Virus record (IMG/VR): IMGVR_UViG_3300031566_000287
Coordinates: 1 to 28,466 of that record
Length of the DNA stretch: 28,466 nucleotides
Source of the DNA: a virus
Reading direction: 5' to 3' (one strand)
Shown in pieces: positions 1-21,417 of this stretch. The notes beneath the pieces are model-generated. The model made no database searches. It was not told the origin of the DNA and worked only from the letters and a program-made list of their open reading frames with translations. Each line of letters begins with the position of its first letter. Position 1 is the stretch's first letter. The position numbers and the translations under genes are program-made.

Positions 1-1120
1 CAATGTCTTTCCAATTAGATAGGTCAGCCGTGTTGATGTATTCCCTGATCCTCTTGACGATGCCCTCCAGGCTCTTGAACATCCCGGTCAGGGCCTGAAC
101 TGCCCCGGTCGAAAGGCCACTTTCTCCCTCTCCGGTCAGCGCTCCGAAAACGTCCTTGAGAAGTTTCTTCAACTCCTGGAAGAACCCCCCGCCGGCAGTT
201 CCTGCCACGGCCTGGAAGGCATCCTTCACCCGGTTTACCAGCAAGGTCATGGTGTTGCCGAGGGGCTGCTCGATCTTCTCGAAGGCTTCGAATCTCTTCA
301 GGACCTCCTCGGTGAAGGTCCCCATCTCCTTCCACTTGCGAACGTCGTCAGACGTAATACCGAGGGCCGTAGCGATGCGGGTCGTCTGGGGCCGGATGGT
401 CCCGGCGAGGAGGGACCGGATCTCCTCGGGCATCTGCTGACCAGGCATGGACAGCGCGGTGGCGGCCTGGGCGATGCGGCGGGACAGAATGCGGATCTGG
501 TCCAGTGTCATGCCGGCCTGGAGGCCCGGGGCGATGGCGACCTGCATGGCCTCGGCCATGGACTGGAAATCCCCGGTCGTGGCCAGAGCGTCTTTCTGGA
601 GGAGCTTCATCTGCCTCTGGCCGGCCTGCATTGCCAGGGGAAGACTCTGAGAGACGGACAGAACCTTCCCCTGGGCATCCGCAAACTTGCCCGTGGCCAG
701 GATGATCCCGGCCATGGCAATGGACCCCTCCTCCATGGCCTTGTTGAACCCGATGGCCGCCCGGGTGATCTGGTCGAAGCTCCTCTTCACCGCTCCCATG
801 GCCACGAAAAGGACCAAGTAGGTGAGGAACCTCCGGACCGTCCGGCCCAAGAAGCCCAGGCTGGTCGTGAGGTCGTCCACCCCGCGCTTCATGGAGGCTG
901 TCTGAGTCCTGGCGGCAGCAAGCCGAAGCCTCAGCTCAGAGACGGACCGGCTCAACCTCTCGATCCTCCGGGCGGCCGCGTCATTCGAGGAATTCATCCG
1001 GTTGGCGGTCTGAGCCATCAGAGACATGGCTCGCTGGGTCTGCGCCAGCCCTACCGCCAGAGCCTTCAATCCCTGAAGGTTGGCGGCAGTCGTGATCCGA
1101 TAGTTCAGGCCCCTGTCCAT
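1..1120 (-). CDS. Tail tape measure protein, N-terminal part (runs off window edge)
   Basis: Open on the minus strand from an ATG at 1120 to the window edge without a stop (about 373 codons visible). The start overlaps the upstream stop as TAATG and is preceded by GGGGGAGG six bases away. The protein begins with a helical, Arg/Ala-rich stretch (residues about 25-80, coiled-coil-like with MAQTANRM and RLSRSVSELRLRL), then a hydrophobic segment near residues 98-111, then long Ala/Gln/Met-rich helices. Tape measure proteins set tail length and are threaded through the tail tube. The assignment rests on this composition, on the large open frame, and on its place directly after the frameshifting tail chaperone pair and tube gene, which is where the family always sits. 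The C-terminal part, including any lytic domain, is outside the window. Confidence 0.85.
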   Translation of the reverse strand, partial: MDRGLNYRITTAANLQGLKALAVGLAQTQRAMSLMAQTANRMNSSNDAAARRIERLSRSVSELRLRLAAARTQTASMKRGVDDLTTSLGFLGRTVRRFLTYLVLFVAMGAVKRSFDQITRAAIGFNKAMEEGSIAMAGIILATGKFADAQGKVLSVSQSLPLAMQAGQRQMKLLQKDALATTGDFQSMAEAMQVAIAPGLQAGMTLDQIRILSRRIAQAATALSMPGQQMPEEIRSLLAGTIRPQTTRIATALGITSDDVRKWKEMGTFTEEVLKRFEAFEKIEQPLGNTMTLLVNRVKDAFQAVAGTAGGGFFQELKKLLKDVFGALTGEGESGLSTGAVQALTGMFKSLEGIVKRIREYINTADLSNWKDI

Positions 1121-1404
1121 TAAATGCCTCCCCCGAATTTCGCTAGGAATTCCTTCTCATCCGACTCGTCTTCCCCGCCCTCACTCAAGTGCTTCATCAG
1201 GTCCTTCCATCCCTTCTGGTCGGCCCCGTAGGCAGCCCGGGTCAGGATGGCGGTCATCCGATGCTTCCTCATCATCTCTCTGTCAAGGCTTCCGATCACC
1301 GAGTCGAACGACAAGAGATCCAGGTTCATCAGCCACTCCAGGTCCAAGCCGTTCATCGCGCCCCGGACCACGGAGTCTTGTAGGTCTAGCCAATAGTCTC
1401 GCTT
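1120..1404 (-). CDS. gpT-like -1 frame extension of the tail assembly chaperone
   Basis: This frame is one base back (-1) relative to the chaperone gene at 1386-1979. It stays open past the chaperone stop and ends in a TAA overlapping the tape measure start. It encodes about 93 residues after a likely slip, starting KRDYWLDLQDS and including DLEWLMNLDLLSFDSVIGSL. The only start candidate inside is a GTG at 1371 with no Shine-Dalgarno, so independent translation is unlikely. In lambda and most long-tailed phages, two proteins G and GT are made from this spot by -1 frameshifting and act as chaperones that load the tape measure protein. A fused product from 1979 to 1120 would be 290 aa. The exact slip point is uncertain. 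Confidence 0.7.
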   Translation of the reverse strand, partial: KRDYWLDLQDSVVRGAMNGLDLEWLMNLDLLSFDSVIGSLDREMMRKHRMTAILTRAAYGADQKGWKDLMKHLSEGGEDESDEKEFLAKFGGGI

Positions 1405-1979
1405 GGGGGCTCGGGCTCGGGCAGGGGCGCCTCTCCTCTTAGTCCCGCGAGACTTCTTTTCATCGCTTCCCCCGCCATCTCCGCAAAAGGGCCGAGCACC
1501 TTCTTGTTGGCCAGGGCGAGGCCGATCAGGAACTCCGTTGCAACGTCCAGCCCGAGGCCCTCCACGAAATTCCTGGCGTCTGCCCGGCTCGTGTCCCTGG
1601 GGAAGATGTCCCGCAGAGAGTCCACCAAGAGGATGCCGAAGATCATGGCGTTCTCCGGATCGAGCAAGGTGTTGATCGCATCCGAAACAGCGTTCGCCCT
1701 CTCCGTGGTCCGGAGGGAAGCCAGGTCCTTCGAGATCGCTTCCACCTTGATGTCCTGGTCCTCGATCTGGCCGGCCTTGAACTTGGACTTGGCCTGCTGG
1801 GCCTGGTCCCCGTCGTGCTTGGTCAGGATGATGGTGAGGGCCTTGGCGATGGGTTGCGCGACCGACCGGATGGCGAAGGCATGCTTGAGCGAGATGGGAT
1901 AGAAGTGCAAGGTCTCGCCCTGAATCTGGTGCTCGATGAACGACGGTGAAATGAACGACAATTTCTCTTTCCAGCTCAT
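1386..1979 (-). CDS. Tail assembly chaperone (gpG-like)
   Basis: A 197-aa protein starting MSWKEKLSFISP. The ATG at 1979 is preferred because GGAGGA lies four bases upstream; an in-frame TTG at 1991 would precede that ribosome site and is unlikely. The protein is acidic and mostly helical and ends in a Pro/Glu-rich tail (PLPEPEPPSE), which resembles a linker. It lies between the tail tube gene and the tape measure gene and overlaps a -1 frame extension, the defining context of gpG-type tail chaperones that hold the tape measure protein before tube assembly. No family signature could be checked by search, so the call rests on position, size and the frameshift arrangement. A rho-independent terminator lies immediately upstream, so expression is probably reduced relative to the tube gene. 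Confidence 0.75.
   Translation of the reverse strand: MSWKEKLSFISPSFIEHQIQGETLHFYPISLKHAFAIRSVAQPIAKALTIILTKHDGDQAQQAKSKFKAGQIEDQDIKVEAISKDLASLRTTERANAVSDAINTLLDPENAMIFGILLVDSLRDIFPRDTSRADARNFVEGLGLDVATEFLIGLALANKKVLGPFAEMAGEAMKRSLAGLRGEAPLPEPEPPSETIG
1404..1409 (-). other. Candidate -1 frameshift site, C-rich
   Basis: On the minus strand the zero frame reads GAG CCC CCA AGC here, giving five consecutive C residues before AAG. A proline tRNA on CCA could re-pair with CCC one base back, after which AAG CGA GAC TAT TGG is read in the gpT-like frame. It sits 16 bases before the zero-frame stop, as in lambda G/GT. It is not a strict X XXY YYZ heptamer, because the base before CCC is G. Confidence 0.4.
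1485..1491 (-). other. Candidate -1 slippery heptamer CCCTTTT
   Basis: The minus strand reads GGC CCT TTT GCG in the chaperone frame, which contains C CCT TTT, an exact X XXY YYZ slippery heptamer in the correct phase. The -1 frame is open from here to 1120. Slipping here would remove the last 33 residues of the chaperone and add a basic stretch before the gpT-like part. This site matches the heptamer rule better than the C-rich site at 1404-1409 but lies further from the stop. Confidence 0.45.
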
Positions 1980-1994
1980 GGGTTCCTCCAAGAC

Positions 1995-2051: not shown

Positions 2052-2897
2052 TTACGCCTGGGACTCGTTGGTGACGATGGTGAGGGTCGGGCTCAGGGGG
2101 TCAGCCGTGGCATTGCGCTCGGCCAGACCGGAGAGCTGAAGAGTGGTCCAGTCGTCACCGATCAGGGCGAAGTCACCCTCGGCCGAGAGGCGGACCTGGT
2201 GGAAGGTGTATTCGGTCCACTTGTCGGTGTCCGCCGGGTTCTCCGAGACGAATCGGAGGCAGCCGACGATGGCGCTCTGAGAGGCGGCCTTCACGCGGGA
2301 GACCAAGGCGACTGCGGTGGAGTTGAGAGCAACGTCCACATCGTAGGAGCCGGCTTCCATGTCCCCGCCATCCACGACGAAAATACGACCGAGGGCCTCG
2401 TCCACCACGTAGTCCGTGGTCTCGACCATGGCCGAGCCTCCGGCGTTGGGGGTGATCGTCACTTCCCCAATGTCGTAGATGCGCGTGGCGGCGGTCTTGG
2501 TTGCGGCCGTGGCGCCCTCATAGAGATCATACCAGCGTCCCTGGTCGGTGACCACGAGGTTCCCGTTTCCGGTAATCGCGGCCCCACCGTTGTTGGTCCG
2601 GGTATCCGACTCACCGCTGAAGAAGAACGCCAGGTTCTCGAAGTTGATCTCGTCCAGCGTCAGCGAGACGTTGATCTTCTGGCTCACCACGACCTGGAGG
2701 TCGGTGAGCTTGAGACCTTCCCGGCTGGACATGTGATCCAGCTTCTCGGTCTCCATCGAGATGTTGAAGGCGGGGGCGTTGCCGAGGTCCCGGAAGGCCC
2801 CCGGAATGCCCGAAGTCAGTTCCGCGAAATAGACCTTCCCACGGCCGAGATTGTAGTCCTCGGTCCTGGGGAGCCCAGAAGTATTCCTGCCAGCCAT
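2052..2897 (-). CDS. Major tail tube protein
   Basis: A 281-aa protein with ATG at 2897 and GAGGAG seven bases upstream. The sequence is rich in beta-strand patterns, Thr, Gly and Asn, with almost no Cys. Segments such as NISMETEKLDHMSS near residues 45-58 and SQKINVSLTLDEI near residues 72-84 resemble the tube-protein pattern of phages whose tail tube protein checks subunit pairing across rings. The C-terminal half includes an extra region with a repeated IYDIGEV/RIFVVDG type layout. Its role is to form the tail tube by stacking hexameric rings. It follows the connector and terminator candidates and precedes the chaperone pair, the standard place. A strong terminator follows it, as expected for a high-copy structural gene. 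Confidence 0.8.
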   Translation of the reverse strand: MAGRNTSGLPRTEDYNLGRGKVYFAELTSGIPGAFRDLGNAPAFNISMETEKLDHMSSREGLKLTDLQVVVSQKINVSLTLDEINFENLAFFFSGESDTRTNNGGAAITGNGNLVVTDQGRWYDLYEGATAATKTAATRIYDIGEVTITPNAGGSAMVETTDYVVDEALGRIFVVDGGDMEAGSYDVDVALNSTAVALVSRVKAASQSAIVGCLRFVSENPADTDKWTEYTFHQVRLSAEGDFALIGDDWTTLQLSGLAERNATADPLSPTLTIVTNESQA

Positions 2898-5480: not shown

Positions 5481-5867
5481 TTACTTGCCTCCCTTGTTCA
5501 TCAGCTCGATCACCTTCAGGGCCTCGGCGACTTCATCCGCCTCTTCCTTGCGAAGGTTCATCCCCGCATAGAACGAGGGGACGATGGACTCGGACTTGTC
5601 TTCCGTGCTCTGGTTCGAGATGCCCATGGACTTCTTCAGCTCCACCAGGTCCTTCTCGGCCTTCTCCGCACGCTCCTTGAGGTCCGTCTTCTCCTTGTCG
5701 AGAGCGGTCTTCTTTGCCTCGGCCTCGACCTTGGCACGCTCGACCAGATCGTCCTGGCGAGCCTTGACGAGGAACTCGACGGCCTTGGCCAGGGTCGCGC
5801 CCTGAGTCATCTGGGCCGCCAGACCATCCTGAAGGGACTTCAGGAGATCCCGGTCTTCCTTCTCCAT
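5481..5867 (-). CDS. Probable internally initiated scaffold protein
   Basis: Inside the protease gene an in-frame ATG at 5867 (residue 181, starting MEKEDRDLLKSL) is preceded by AAAGGAG (5877-5883) with a nine-base gap. It marks the exact boundary between the protease domain and the charged coiled-coil region. Initiation here would give a 128-aa scaffold protein, as lambda makes Nu3 from within gene C. This is inferred from the sequence signals; no protein data are available. Confidence 0.45.
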   Translation of the reverse strand: MEKEDRDLLKSLQDGLAAQMTQGATLAKAVEFLVKARQDDLVERAKVEAEAKKTALDKEKTDLKERAEKAEKDLVELKKSMGISNQSTEDKSESIVPSFYAGMNLRKEEADEVAEALKVIELMNKGGK

Positions 5868-6407
5868 CTTGTTCGACTCCTTTGGTTTACTGAACATTCT
5901 ACGGAGCCAACCCTGGCCCGCGTCTTCTTTCTCGGCCTCCCCGGCCAGAGAAACCCCATGCCAATCGCCGTCTCGATAGAGCTTCTGAAGGTTGGGGTCT
6001 TCCACCTTGATGATCATTCCCCAGGACCCCACGGGGCTCACCTTCTCACCAGATCGAGTCTGGAACCCCTCAAACCTCGGGTCCCCCTTCTGGACGATGA
6101 AGGTCTCGGCGACCCAGGCCCGGTCAGCTCCCAGGGCCTTCCCATCGTGCCGGAGGTCGATCTGTCCTCCTTCCTTCTGAAAGCTATAGGCCATCTCCTT
6201 CACTGTCTTTGCATCGGCGAATTCCCCGTCTGAGTCCAGGAGGTCTGGGACGTAGACCAGGGCGGTCAAGAGGCCCTCCGCGTCCATCTTGGAGAGCATC
6301 TCCACCTCGAAGGTCCCGTCCGCCTTGAACAAAACTGGAAGGCGGTTCTTCCCTGCGGGACACAGAGAGACCCACTTGATCTTCGGGTTCTTGAGCCTCT
6401 TGGCCAT
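5481..6407 (-). CDS. Prohead protease (XkdF-like) with C-terminal scaffold region
   Basis: A 308-aa protein; the ATG at 6407 (MAKRLKNPKIKW) follows GGGAGG, while the longer frame start at 6461 has none. Residues about 48-158 match the XkdF-type prohead serine protease layout: VYVPDLLDSDGEF, a His at residue 87 in IDLRHDGK, VGSWGMIIKV and GVSLAGEA with Ser153. Residues about 181-270 are highly charged and coiled-coil forming (KVEAEAKKTALDKEK, RAEKAEKDLVELKK), as in scaffolding proteins, and the C-terminus is a short helical segment of the type that contacts the shell. Such proteins cleave scaffold and capsid precursors in the procapsid. It is the first gene of the leftward head operon, and a probable internal start at 5867 would also make scaffold alone. 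Confidence 0.85.
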   Translation of the reverse strand: MAKRLKNPKIKWVSLCPAGKNRLPVLFKADGTFEVEMLSKMDAEGLLTALVYVPDLLDSDGEFADAKTVKEMAYSFQKEGGQIDLRHDGKALGADRAWVAETFIVQKGDPRFEGFQTRSGEKVSPVGSWGMIIKVEDPNLQKLYRDGDWHGVSLAGEAEKEDAGQGWLRRMFSKPKESNKMEKEDRDLLKSLQDGLAAQMTQGATLAKAVEFLVKARQDDLVERAKVEAEAKKTALDKEKTDLKERAEKAEKDLVELKKSMGISNQSTEDKSESIVPSFYAGMNLRKEEADEVAEALKVIELMNKGGK

Positions 6408-6515
6408 GAAAATTCCTCCCGTCCAGGATGTAGGGGTATCATGGACAGGATAGCACATCATCCTGGATGTGCGGTTAAAAAATTCTATTTGATGCCCGTA
6501 TCAAAAGGAAGTGCA
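6408..6515. promoter_or_regulatory. Divergent intergenic region between head operon and portal gene
   Basis: This 108-base region separates the leftward protease start (6407) from the rightward portal start (6516), so it should hold both promoters or an operator. It contains a nine-base inverted repeat (6422-6430 TCCAGGATG with 6459-6467 CATCCTGGA) and an A/T-rich stretch at 6475-6492 that could serve either direction. I see no convincing -35/-10 pair for a housekeeping sigma factor; a phage-specific factor or weak promoters are possible. The Shine-Dalgarno signals of both genes lie at its two ends. Confidence 0.4.
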
Positions 6516-7943
6516 ATGGAGCCATCAAAGATCCTGAAAATCGTCGGGGCTTCCACTCATCTGCTCTATCCGGACCAGGGTGGGAAGTCCCTTCTCCAGA
6601 TCCTCAAGGGGGACGAAACGCAGTCCTCCCAGGATCCCTGCCCGGGGTTGAAGTATCACCCCTTCAACTTCGAGCTGGTGACCAAGTTCAAGGAGTCCAA
6701 CTCCCACCACAGCACCTGCATCGAGACCAAGAAGGAGGCCACGGTGGGCCTGGGCCTGGTGACCGAGGAGGAGAGGAAGAAGAAAGCGGAGATGGCCCAG
6801 ATGGCCACGATGCCTCCGGCGGCCCCGGCCGGCCCGGCCAAGCCCGGGGGTATCCAGCTTCCCCAGAAGCCCCGGGGAGTCAACAAAGAGGATGATCTGG
6901 ACCTGTCCGACCGCAGCACCTCGAAGGCCGAGATGGCGCTGGATGAGCTTTGCCGGGTCTCGTGGCAGGATGTGATCGGGGACGTTGCCGAGGATTACTT
7001 CCAGACCGGAAACGGATTCGTCGAGGTCGTTCGCGCAGGGAATGAAATCGTCGGCCTCCACCATGTCCCTGCGGCGCATGTCTATGTCGTCGTGGAGGAC
7101 GACCTCTACAACATCCACTATGAGATCAATCCTTTCTTGTCCGGCAGCCTCCTTGAGGGTGGGGACTCGGCTGCATCTGCCAGGACCTTCGTTCCCTTTG
7201 GGGAGAAGGAAGCCTACCTGGCGAGGACCCCCGCCGCATCGGAGGCGGCAGCCCGGATCTCCGAGGTCATCCACTTCCGCAAGCCTTCGGCAGCCTCCCG
7301 GTGGTATGGAGTCCCCGATTGGTTGGCCGCCGTTCCGAAGATCGAGCTGTCCCATTGCTCGGATCAGTTTCAGCTCGACTTCTTTATGAACAGGGGAGTG
7401 CCGGAGTTTCTCCTGTTTGTGACCGGGGGCGAGGTCTCACCCCAGGACTGGACGAAGCTGGAGGACAGCCTCCGTGCTGGCGTTGGTTTGGGAAACAGCC
7501 ACAAGTCCATAGCGATGAACCTCGTTGCGCCCGAGATCGGAATCCATCTCGAAAAGCTGGAGTCCGACAACCGGGATGGGGACAGCCAGCAAGCGCTGGA
7601 GGAGCAATGGGCCCTCAGCATTGTGACGGCCCACCGGGTTCCACCGTTGCTGGCAGGCATCCAGATCCCGGGGAAGCTCGGGGCATCGAACGAGATCGTG
7701 TCCGCCATGAAGGCTTTCCAGACCTTGGTGATCGGCCCGAGCCAGAAGGTCTTCGAGACGATCCTGAACAAGACACTCGGCGGGAAGAAGGGCGTGTCCG
7801 GGCTCAAGGCGGGGGACTTCAAGTTCCGCAAGATCACCGATGAGATGGAAGTCGAGCAGCTCGATCCGATCTCCCGGATGCGCCAGGAGTTCACGGCTCC
7901 AGTGAACAAGGACCGCGACCCCAACAAGGGCTTGAAGGAATGA
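6516..7943 (+). CDS. Portal protein
   Basis: A 475-aa protein on the plus strand. The ATG at 6516 (MEPSKILKIVGAS) is chosen because AAAAGGAAG lies four bases upstream; ATGs at 6441 and 6492 have no ribosome site. The sequence shows the HK97/PBSX-type portal pattern: CIETKKEATVGLGL (residues about 67-80), a Pro/Ala-rich insertion (MATMPPAAPAGPAKPGG), DYFQTGNGFVEVVR and LHHVPAAHVYVVV, EVIHFRKP, WYGVPDWLAA, and FFMNRGVPEFLLFV followed by the helical stem and GASNEIVSAMKAFQ. The portal is the dodecameric DNA entry vertex and terminase docking site. It is one of only two plus-strand genes, opposite in strand to the rest of the head cluster. The stop overlaps the next start as ATGA. Confidence 0.9.
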   Translation: MEPSKILKIVGASTHLLYPDQGGKSLLQILKGDETQSSQDPCPGLKYHPFNFELVTKFKESNSHHSTCIETKKEATVGLGLVTEEERKKKAEMAQMATMPPAAPAGPAKPGGIQLPQKPRGVNKEDDLDLSDRSTSKAEMALDELCRVSWQDVIGDVAEDYFQTGNGFVEVVRAGNEIVGLHHVPAAHVYVVVEDDLYNIHYEINPFLSGSLLEGGDSAASARTFVPFGEKEAYLARTPAASEAAARISEVIHFRKPSAASRWYGVPDWLAAVPKIELSHCSDQFQLDFFMNRGVPEFLLFVTGGEVSPQDWTKLEDSLRAGVGLGNSHKSIAMNLVAPEIGIHLEKLESDNRDGDSQQALEEQWALSIVTAHRVPPLLAGIQIPGKLGASNEIVSAMKAFQTLVIGPSQKVFETILNKTLGGKKGVSGLKAGDFKFRKITDEMEVEQLDPISRMRQEFTAPVNKDRDPNKGLKE

Positions 7944-19381: not shown

Positions 19382-19696
19382 TCAGAACTTCTTTCCCCCA
19401 TGCCGATACGCACGGGTGTCGTTGTAATCCATCTTCGCCCGGAGGGCCCCGATGAGGTCCAGCTTCAGCTCCTTGGCCATGTCCAGGATTCTGATGATCG
19501 TGTCCGCCAGCTCCTCCTCGACCCCGGAAAACTCCGGGATCTTGTCGCTCTGCATGTTCACCCTCTCGGCCTCCAGGGCCTCGGACAACTCCGAGTGGAC
19601 GAGAGCGATCAAGGTCCCGAACTCCCTGGGCTTGTCCCACCAGCCCTTGTCGTGGGCATACTGGTTGATCCGGTCCATGAGATCCTGGATGCGCAT
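19382..19696 (-). CDS. MazG-like nucleoside triphosphate pyrophosphohydrolase
   Basis: A 104-aa helical protein with ATG at 19696 overlapping the nuclease stop (TGATG) and GGAGG seven bases before it. It has the all-alpha NTP-PPase signature: HSELSEALEAER (34-45, Glu36 and Glu39), VEEELADTIIRILD (59-72, Glu62 and Asp65), and a basic C-terminal KMDYNDTRAYRHGGKKF. These enzymes convert dNTPs or NTPs to monophosphate and pyrophosphate using Mg2+, cleaning the pool or removing an alarmone. A second, unrelated-looking pyrophosphohydrolase candidate lies at 13155-13517. Confidence 0.85.
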   Translation of the reverse strand: MRIQDLMDRINQYAHDKGWWDKPREFGTLIALVHSELSEALEAERVNMQSDKIPEFSGVEEELADTIIRILDMAKELKLDLIGALRAKMDYNDTRAYRHGGKKF

Positions 19697-20532
19697 CAGA
19701 TTCCCTCCACGATGTTCTCGAACCGGGAGCGGAGGCCCTGGACGAATGCCTTCATCTCGGGGGTCGAGTCCGGGGCCGCCACGAACACGTCGGTCAGGAT
19801 CTCGACATGCCCTGCCGCGAGGGTGAGCATGTCCCTCCGCTTGAAAACATCGAGGGACCAGAAGCTGTCGGGAGCATCGTCCCCGAGGTCGGCCAGGATC
19901 AAGGCCATGGCAGCCTTGAAGATCCGCTCCACGCAGTTCACGGTCCGGCCCACAGGCATGCACCGGACGTAGAGCGTCGGCCCTTCCGGGGGCTCCACAG
20001 GGAACGTGCCGGCCGACACGATCCTGGCCTCGGGCGGCAGGTAGGCTTCCGGTGGGAAGGGCGTCGTCTGGATGGGCTTGGCGATCTCGTTGAGCATCGC
20101 CGGGGGTTCCTCCTTCAGCGGCTTGACTTCCTCCTCAACCCCAGTCTGGCCCGTGATCTCGATGGGCGTCTTGTTCTTGCTCCCCTTGGGCCGGCCCCGG
20201 CGCTTCGGCTTCTCCTCGGCAGGTCCGGGGACTTCCGGGGGGACTTCCGGGGCGACTTCCGGGGCGTCTGCTGGGGAGTTTGGAGGAGCCGGTGCCGGCT
20301 CCGGAGCGCTGGCGGTCTCAACGACGGGCGCGGGCTCCGGAGTCGGGGCCGGTGGAACTTCCATGTCCTTGTTGGAATCCATGCAGGCCTTGCACGGGAA
20401 CCCCTTGGAATTCTGGCCCTTCCCTCCGCAGGCGATGCAGGGTATGGCGACTTTGGGATCCTCGACGGCCGGAGCTTCGGGCTCGGCCTGGCATGGCAGC
20501 TTCTTCTTCTTCATCTTGTCGAACAGCGACAT
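19696..20532 (-). CDS. Possible internally initiated zinc knuckle/AT-hook protein
   Basis: Within the nuclease gene an in-frame ATG at 20532 (residue 296, MSLFDKMKKKK) has AAAAGGAG at 20542-20549, nine bases upstream, as strong as real gene starts nearby. It lies just after the nuclease domain and before the zinc knuckle. The resulting product would be 278 aa with DNA-binding modules only. The residues resemble the true N-termini of the helicase (MSLLDKLKER) and SSB-like protein (MGLFDGIKDA). It could equally be a relic of an ancient gene fusion. Confidence 0.35.
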   Translation of the reverse strand: MSLFDKMKKKKLPCQAEPEAPAVEDPKVAIPCIACGGKGQNSKGFPCKACMDSNKDMEVPPAPTPEPAPVVETASAPEPAPAPPNSPADAPEVAPEVPPEVPGPAEEKPKRRGRPKGSKNKTPIEITGQTGVEEEVKPLKEEPPAMLNEIAKPIQTTPFPPEAYLPPEARIVSAGTFPVEPPEGPTLYVRCMPVGRTVNCVERIFKAAMALILADLGDDAPDSFWSLDVFKRRDMLTLAAGHVEILTDVFVAAPDSTPEMKAFVQGLRSRFENIVEGI

Positions 20533-21417
20533 TTCTTCCGTCTCCTTTTGGTCAAACTGCTGACCCGACTTGTCTATGATCTGCTTGATCCTCTTGGTGT
20601 AGTCCTTGATCGAATTCTTTCCACCGCAAATCGAGAGGAACGGACAGCCTCCATAGGCATTGCAGGCCTTGGTGTCTTCTGCGCCCGCCACGAATGCCCA
20701 CTCGCCAGAAGCATACTCCGAACTCTGGAGAACGGTCGAGCGAAGGTCCAGCATTTCCTTCGCCATCTGTGTCAGTTCCATCCAGAACTCGTCGACACGA
20801 GGCAGGTCGACGTGGGCTTCCGCCACCTGCACGCGGGGGGACGGCTGCCGAACGAATTGATTGTGGCGAATCAGGACCGGCCTCTCCGGCAGGCCCTTCA
20901 GGTGGCGCTGGTAGAATGCGTAGGCAGCATAGATCAGCATCTGCGGATCGTCCTGGATGGAGGCCTCGGAGAGGCAGTAGCGGCTGTTCTTGCTGACCTT
21001 GTGGTCATGGACCTCAGCGTCTTCCAGGAGCATGAGGTCAATGTAGCCCGTCAAACCCACGTCATCGACGACCGGCAGGTCGAACTTCTTCTCGATCTCC
21101 CTACCGGGGCGACGGAGGACGATGCCCGAGTCGATGCCGAGCTGGACCAGTGCCTTGATCTCTTCGGCCTCCTCGTCGGTCACGGTCCCGTCCTTGCAGG
21201 TCATCCACCCGTCTGGATAGATGTTCACCGACTTCCCCGCCTTGTCCCTGCCGGTCTCGTCCGCCTCAAGCCAGCGGGCCAGTACGGCATGCGTCACGGT
21301 CCCGAGGATCTGAGCGGCGGCGGATTTAGCGACCTGGGGCAGTCGCCAGACTCTCTCGAACGCCCACTTCCTCCTGCAGGCAAGGAAGGTCTTATACTGC
21401 GTGGCTGAAATGATCAC
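19696..21417 (-). CDS. Cas4/AddB-like PD-(D/E)XK nuclease fused to zinc knuckle and AT-hook
   Basis: A 573-aa protein from a GTG at 21417 (overlapping the previous stop as GTGA, with GAGGAGGAA upstream). Residues 1-265 are a RecB-type nuclease: Cys14, His43 in GTVTHAVL, Asp127 in TGYIDLML, Asp138-x-Lys140, and three further cysteines C252, C258 and C264, the pattern of a 4Fe-4S cluster in Cas4 and AddB. Residues 327-345 contain two CxxC pairs (zinc knuckle), 353-402 a Pro/Ala/Glu linker with a repeat, and 404-416 KRRGRPKGSKNK, an AT-hook. The C-terminal 90 residues form a helical domain of unknown function. It probably processes DNA ends with the neighbouring helicase. An internal start at 20532 may yield the C-terminal part alone. 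Confidence 0.85.
   Translation of the reverse strand: MIISATQYKTFLACRRKWAFERVWRLPQVAKSAAAQILGTVTHAVLARWLEADETGRDKAGKSVNIYPDGWMTCKDGTVTDEEAEEIKALVQLGIDSGIVLRRPGREIEKKFDLPVVDDVGLTGYIDLMLLEDAEVHDHKVSKNSRYCLSEASIQDDPQMLIYAAYAFYQRHLKGLPERPVLIRHNQFVRQPSPRVQVAEAHVDLPRVDEFWMELTQMAKEMLDLRSTVLQSSEYASGEWAFVAGAEDTKACNAYGGCPFLSICGGKNSIKDYTKRIKQIIDKSGQQFDQKETEEMSLFDKMKKKKLPCQAEPEAPAVEDPKVAIPCIACGGKGQNSKGFPCKACMDSNKDMEVPPAPTPEPAPVVETASAPEPAPAPPNSPADAPEVAPEVPPEVPGPAEEKPKRRGRPKGSKNKTPIEITGQTGVEEEVKPLKEEPPAMLNEIAKPIQTTPFPPEAYLPPEARIVSAGTFPVEPPEGPTLYVRCMPVGRTVNCVERIFKAAMALILADLGDDAPDSFWSLDVFKRRDMLTLAAGHVEILTDVFVAAPDSTPEMKAFVQGLRSRFENIVEGI
20230..20265. repeat. Three tandem 12-bp repeats within the nuclease gene linker
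   Basis: Three consecutive 12-base copies of GACTTCCGGGG(G/C) type at 20230-20241, 20242-20253 and 20254-20265 encode the repeated PEV(A/P) part of the proline-rich linker between the zinc knuckle and AT-hook. The copies differ by one base. Such repeats expand and contract by slippage, so the linker length may vary between relatives. Confidence 0.8.

Follow-up and report, generated by a model that had tools for sequence, protein, structure and literature searches.

Frameshifted tail chaperones are well known in phages, and in lambda the slip heptamer is G_GGA_AAG. The lambda G/GT system, in the part of PMC5009743 that was available, shares with the locus analysed here the gene order, one start giving two products, a -1 shift, a C-terminal domain encoded in the -1 frame and the tape measure gene next. 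The Casjensviridae 'pre-tape measure frameshift protein' (Enc34, Redjac and BcepNazgul, and AH2 in the available text of PMC3483164) occupies the same gene order, and the major tail proteins of these phages are related to that of our locus (about 24-36% identity). A search of the phage literature for frameshifts at CCCTTTT or CCCUUUU, including the forms ending in A and G, returned one chaperone case, the G/T frameshift of E. coli phage 9g, whose slip motif begins with CCCUUUU (available portion of PMC4276943); subscription papers lay largely outside this search, so earlier reports of a -1 shift are possible.

The window (the whole stretch of 28,466 nucleotides from IMG/VR record IMGVR_UViG_3300031566_000287) very probably encodes a tail assembly chaperone of the lambda G/GT type, with a -1 slip at CCCTTTT (1491-1485, minus strand) that yields a longer fusion (Table 1). 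Two ORFs sit between the major tail protein and the tape measure genes, and the second overlaps the first in the -1 frame and has no start codon at its conserved beginning, both as expected of this type. The chaperone starts at ATG 1979, which GGAGGA closely precedes (TTG 1991 would give a longer ORF), and stops at TAG 1388-1386. From 2022 onward the -1 frame stays open as far as a TAA at 1122-1120, which overlaps the tape measure ATG at 1120 by one base. The first ATG, GTG or TTG codon in this frame is GTG 1371, followed by ATG 1356, in agreement with the initial annotation, which had the frame running from the chaperone to the tape measure start without a ribosome site of its own. In the dual-coded stretch, frame 0 encodes a Glu/Pro-rich tail and frame -1 a Gly/Arg/Lys-rich linker.

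Table 1. Features of the chaperone locus, in window coordinates.
Feature	Position	Strand	Basis
Major tail protein (Ig-like domain family), upstream of chaperone	2052..2897	-	phrog_807, E=2.2e-47
Tail assembly chaperone, 0-frame product, 197 aa	1386..1979	-	gene position; weak PHROG_1442 match, E=0.0069; aligned homologues in related phages
Slip site C_CCT_TTT	1485..1491	-	in-frame heptamer; column conservation in 16/17; 0/127 control dipeptides
Dual-coded stretch, slip site to 0-frame stop	1389..1484	-	frame translations
0-frame TAG stop within TGGCTAGA	1386..1388	-	-1 frame of TGGCTAGA reads W-L-[DE]-L-Q-D
-1 frame extension (lambda T-like), 121 aa after the shift	1120..1485	-	homology in frame; no usable start before GTG 1371
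Tape measure protein, continues beyond window edge	2..1120	-	phrog_10093, E=9.9e-11
Rejected candidate site CCCCCA (C_CCA tetramer)	1404..1409	-	no conservation among 16 lineages

Elsewhere in the window, the genes for the head maturation protease (phrog_3017; 5481-6461, minus strand) and the portal protein (phrog_12, E=1.2e-24; 6441-7943, plus strand) are divergently oriented, with a 21-base overlap between their ORF starts; all other identified structural genes lie on the minus strand. An open frame of 533 aa at 19807-21408 (plus strand), antisense to the exonuclease ORF at 19696-21417 (minus strand) and with no PHROG match, is probably a GC-rich shadow frame.

The heptamer reported in the initial annotation is present, is read C CCT TTT in the zero frame and lies 32 codons before the 0-frame stop. 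It is the sole strict X_XXY_YYZ heptamer in the overlap. The codons CCT, TTT and TTA are rare in the structural genes of the window (6 of 60 Pro, 7 of 68 Phe and 0 of 155 Leu codons, respectively). In a gene of this length, chance alone not uncommonly produces a single in-frame heptamer: shuffles that preserved the protein contained 0.45 per gene on average. In E. coli, according to the available part of PMC4066793, C_CC.U_UU.Y belongs to the efficient class H_HH.U_UU.Y, and reporters with C_CC.U_UU.A and C_CC.U_UU.G shift at more than 0.10% without stimulators; these efficiencies may not apply in the phage's own host.

Searches that took the chaperone and the major tail protein as queries recovered three records that match the window without a difference over 872 bases. 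Two other relatives, L009 and L023, have chaperones 42-44% and 32% identical to that of the window and carry the heptamers C_CCT_TTA and C_CCT_TTG, respectively. In the window, L009 and L023 alike, frame 0 ends at a TAG inside TGGCTAGA with the same -1 reading, and the -1 extension of the window is 32-40% identical, in the same frame, to those of L009 and L023. This stop junction was noticed in L009 and L023 before any junction scan was made. A further relative, L063, was obtained by scanning viral contigs for the junction alone, the slip site not being part of the query, and has C_CCT_TTA at the column occupied by the heptamers of the window, L009 and L023. The gene pair with the stop junction was present in six of the 80 sequences fetched from 88 matches (the three window copies, L009, L023 and L063). 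Shuffles that left the proteins unchanged and drew codons according to the usage of each phage placed a heptamer at one column in all of the first three phages 21 times in 100,000, and 0 times in 100,000 once L063 was added.

No start codon precedes the conserved WL[DE]LQD in the window, L023 and L063, while the -1 frame of L009 has TTG and GTG codons upstream, which counts against the no-start argument. The downstream ORF might be a separate protein, started at GTG 1371 or ATG 1356 and coupled to termination at 1386, and both codons do lie near the 0-frame stop, 7 and 12 codons into the -1 domain. However, no Shine-Dalgarno sequence was seen by eye before either codon, the conserved WLDLQD lies upstream of both, and the first start after the TGG varies in position (+7, +6, +6 and +20 codons in four relatives). 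A separate protein would also leave the conserved heptamer unexplained, and we consider it very unlikely.

Relatives were collected more widely with a five-sequence major-tail-protein profile, which found 110, of which 80 were kept and 71 of these 80 examined. The nine left out were window copies (L128 and L129) or had little downstream DNA (L131, L140, L148, L169, L184, L194 and L203). Outside the analysis stood L010, L011, two distant major-tail loci from the contig scan (one of them L024) and L028 (S-ESS1), with its chaperone unannotated. Relatives lacking an open -1 frame would have counted against a frameshift; a chaperone-like ORF with a -1 extension was found in 67 of the 71 (58 distinct). 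In L189 the slip site was probably missed by the ORF-pairing rule. The recurrence of this two-frame layout also refutes a single gene split by sequencing error or recent mutation, an explanation that could appeal to the record being a virus contig with no isolate behind it; the three other records identical over the same 872 bases likewise speak against it, and its probability is negligible.

The strict heptamers in the overlaps of the 58 distinct pairs were C_CCT_TTN alone (12), C_CCT_TTN with G_GGA_AAN (4), G_GGA_AAN alone (12), A_AAA_AAN (16) and G_GGA_AAN with A_AAA_AAN (1); none of these heptamers was present in 13. None of the 16 chaperones with C_CCT_TTN, window included, exceeds 53% identity to its nearest neighbour. 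We aligned 31 of the 58 distinct chaperones and built a tree from them, omitting by choice mainly A_AAA_AAN rows, other distant rows and near copies. At the alignment column of the window's slip site, Pro-[Phe/Leu] is encoded in 17 chaperones and C_CCT_TTN is used in 16 of the 17, the last base of the second codon being T, A, G or C. The one exception is L137, with Pro-Leu as CCC CTG and G_GGA_AAA immediately after. Elsewhere in the same loci, C_CCT_TTN occurs at 0 of 127 Pro-[Phe/Leu] pairs. Judged from these sequences, C_CCT_TTN at this column is a codon choice kept for its own sake. A conserved slippery site in the overlap is a further character of the lambda G/GT type, and the alignment of relatives that the initial annotation had proposed as a check points to the site. 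Slippage in transcription, not by the ribosome, might change the frame on the short runs within CCCTTTT, but it requires longer single-base runs than the chaperone gene contains (five at most), and the conserved feature is codon-phased; we give it next to no weight.

The choice between two candidate sites had been described as not obvious, and the relatives decide it in favour of CCCTTTT. The other candidate was a run of C residues near the stop. Five C residues are indeed present, exactly at 1409-1405 (1404 is A), and are read in frame as GAG CCC CCA AGC, that is, a C_CCA tetramer; they form no heptamer and are not conserved. A P-site slip on C_CCA at 1407-1404, five codons before the stop, would still yield the conserved -1 domain with WLDLQD. 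However, the window is the only one of the 16 C_CCT_TTN lineages with C_CCA in the 12 codons before the stop; some C_CCN tetramer lies in that interval in 6 of the 16, at varying places. The available part of PMC4066793 places C_CCA in E. coli among four tetramers that shift only 1.8- to 3.6-fold over background, values that may not apply in the phage's own host. A -1-frame W..L.D motif was found in 11 of the 16 lineages. It starts 3-21 codons before the 0-frame stop in six, one codon before it in four and three codons after it in one. If the motif is part of the fusion, the shift in those six must occur upstream and not beside the stop, because the motif begins before the stop is reached. Taken together, these observations leave a shift on the C-run hardly credible. 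The expectation that phage sites lie near the stop fails here, as the distance is 25-69 codons in the 16 C_CCT_TTN lineages and 16-33 codons in 12 of the 14 annotated phages compared, whose major tail proteins are related; the slip site of a chaperone need not adjoin the stop.

Homology and gene order strongly support a programmed -1 frameshift in the tail chaperone, as originally proposed, and so do the lack of a start codon and the conservation of the heptamer. By analogy with lambda, most ribosomes would read 1979-1386 and produce the 197-aa chaperone. In a minority, the tRNAs on CCT (P site) and TTT (A site) would slip back one base to CCC TTT at 1491-1485, with TGC read next and translation continuing to 1120, giving a predicted fusion of about 286 aa at a presumably low ratio. 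The extra C-terminal domain of the fusion would be expected to connect tape measure and major tail protein as the tail is assembled.

No conserved downstream stimulatory structure was found when folding was compared with shuffles in the 16 lineages. Folding downstream of the site in the window was weaker than in synonymous shuffles (z about +4, 60 nt). In the same comparison z fell below -1.64 in 5 of the 16 lineages; in 2 others, one of them the window, it was about +1.64 or higher. Dinucleotide shuffles over 82 nt in the first three phages gave z values of 0.21, -0.27 and -1.83. The stretch upstream of the heptamer is purine-rich (in-gene fraction at or below 0.05 in 6 of 16 lineages). With the amino acids fixed, there was no excess in the 16 lineages (Fisher p 0.43), and one of six control offsets gave p 0.02. 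A Shine-Dalgarno stimulator upstream of the heptamer was rejected as unproven, since the stretch is no stronger than its encoded amino acids would lead one to expect.

The evolutionary series around the site is the part that deserves specialist attention. In four lineages (L133, L142, L143 and L144), C_CCT_TTN is followed two or three codons on by G_GGA_AAG; L142 reads CCT TTG GGG GGA AAG. In L142 (IMGVR_UViG_3300032212_000149), four strict heptamers overlap one after another (C_CCT_TTG, T_TTG_GGG, G_GGG_GGA and G_GGA_AAG), with a Shine-Dalgarno-like AAGGAGGTG directly upstream of them. The four lineages fall in three places in the tree, among single-site lineages (three changes, forced by the starred branches); the tree has long branches and 8 of its 28 forks open, so it does not fix the order of the site changes. 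A clade of nine rows (100/100) has no strict heptamer. All 11 members of this clade examined, two of them outside the tree, have G_GGG_GAR aligned with the position of G_GGA_AAG (L149, L153, L156, L157, L159-L161, L165, L166, L168 and L172). Four of the 11 have a -1 frame that opens just one codon before G_GGG_GAR. We hypothesise that G_GGG_GAR is the slip site of this clade. The slip position stays constant while the heptamer changes between C_CCT_TTN and G_GGA_AAN, with four lineages carrying both and one clade no strict heptamer. Tentatively, and at slightly less than an even chance, the protein may set the position, where its helical core ends, with one heptamer (C_CCT_TTN or G_GGA_AAN) replacing the other by way of intermediates that have both sites, the clade without a strict heptamer using the non-canonical G_GGG_GAR and the window being in the C_CCT_TTN state. 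These phages offer a natural series (one heptamer, two, the other, no strict one) for testing how a recoding site can be replaced without loss of the product.

These results fix the frameshift site for a group of uncultured phages whose chaperone could not be clearly matched to any family. PHROG_1442 ('tail assembly chaperone') was matched weakly, by two of three members (E=0.0069 for the window). The chaperone had no match in Pfam, none in BFVD at E<=0.001 (best E=2.5e-3, model mean pLDDT 66) and none by tblastn with three different queries against 50,697 phage records. Against the Casjensviridae chaperones, hhalign gave probabilities of about 2% (2.1%, 0-frame) and about 5% (5.2%, -1 domain). 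Membership of the Casjensviridae chaperones was rejected, no sequence homology being detectable by hhalign or tblastn.

The comparison set comprised thirteen Casjensviridae phages and Vibrio phage SIO-2. Four of these 14 records have a joined CDS (Enc34, RcPacific, BcepNazgul and Redjac). In Enc34 (L012; 5899-8822), the annotation divides the tape-measure region into separate ORFs in different frames, ORF23 ('putative tail related protein') and ORF24 ('tape measure protein'). Ruegeria phage V16 (L013) and Rhodobacter phage RcPacific (L034) have a -1 extension without a strict heptamer in the overlap, RcPacific being annotated as joined. The 12 phages with sites 16-33 codons before the stop each have exactly one strict heptamer in the overlap; in contrast to the window, 8 of these 12 heptamers are A_AAA_AAG and none is C_CCT_TTN. 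The 9g motif, CCCUUUUUUU, differs in being reported as a -2 shift (available portion of PMC4276943). Compared with lambda, the window has C_CCU_UUU as its heptamer, the site lies 32 codons before the stop, and sequence homology of the chaperone to G is not established. In frames, gene order and conserved site, the locus is an ordinary lambda-type chaperone frameshift, and its slip site is now identified.
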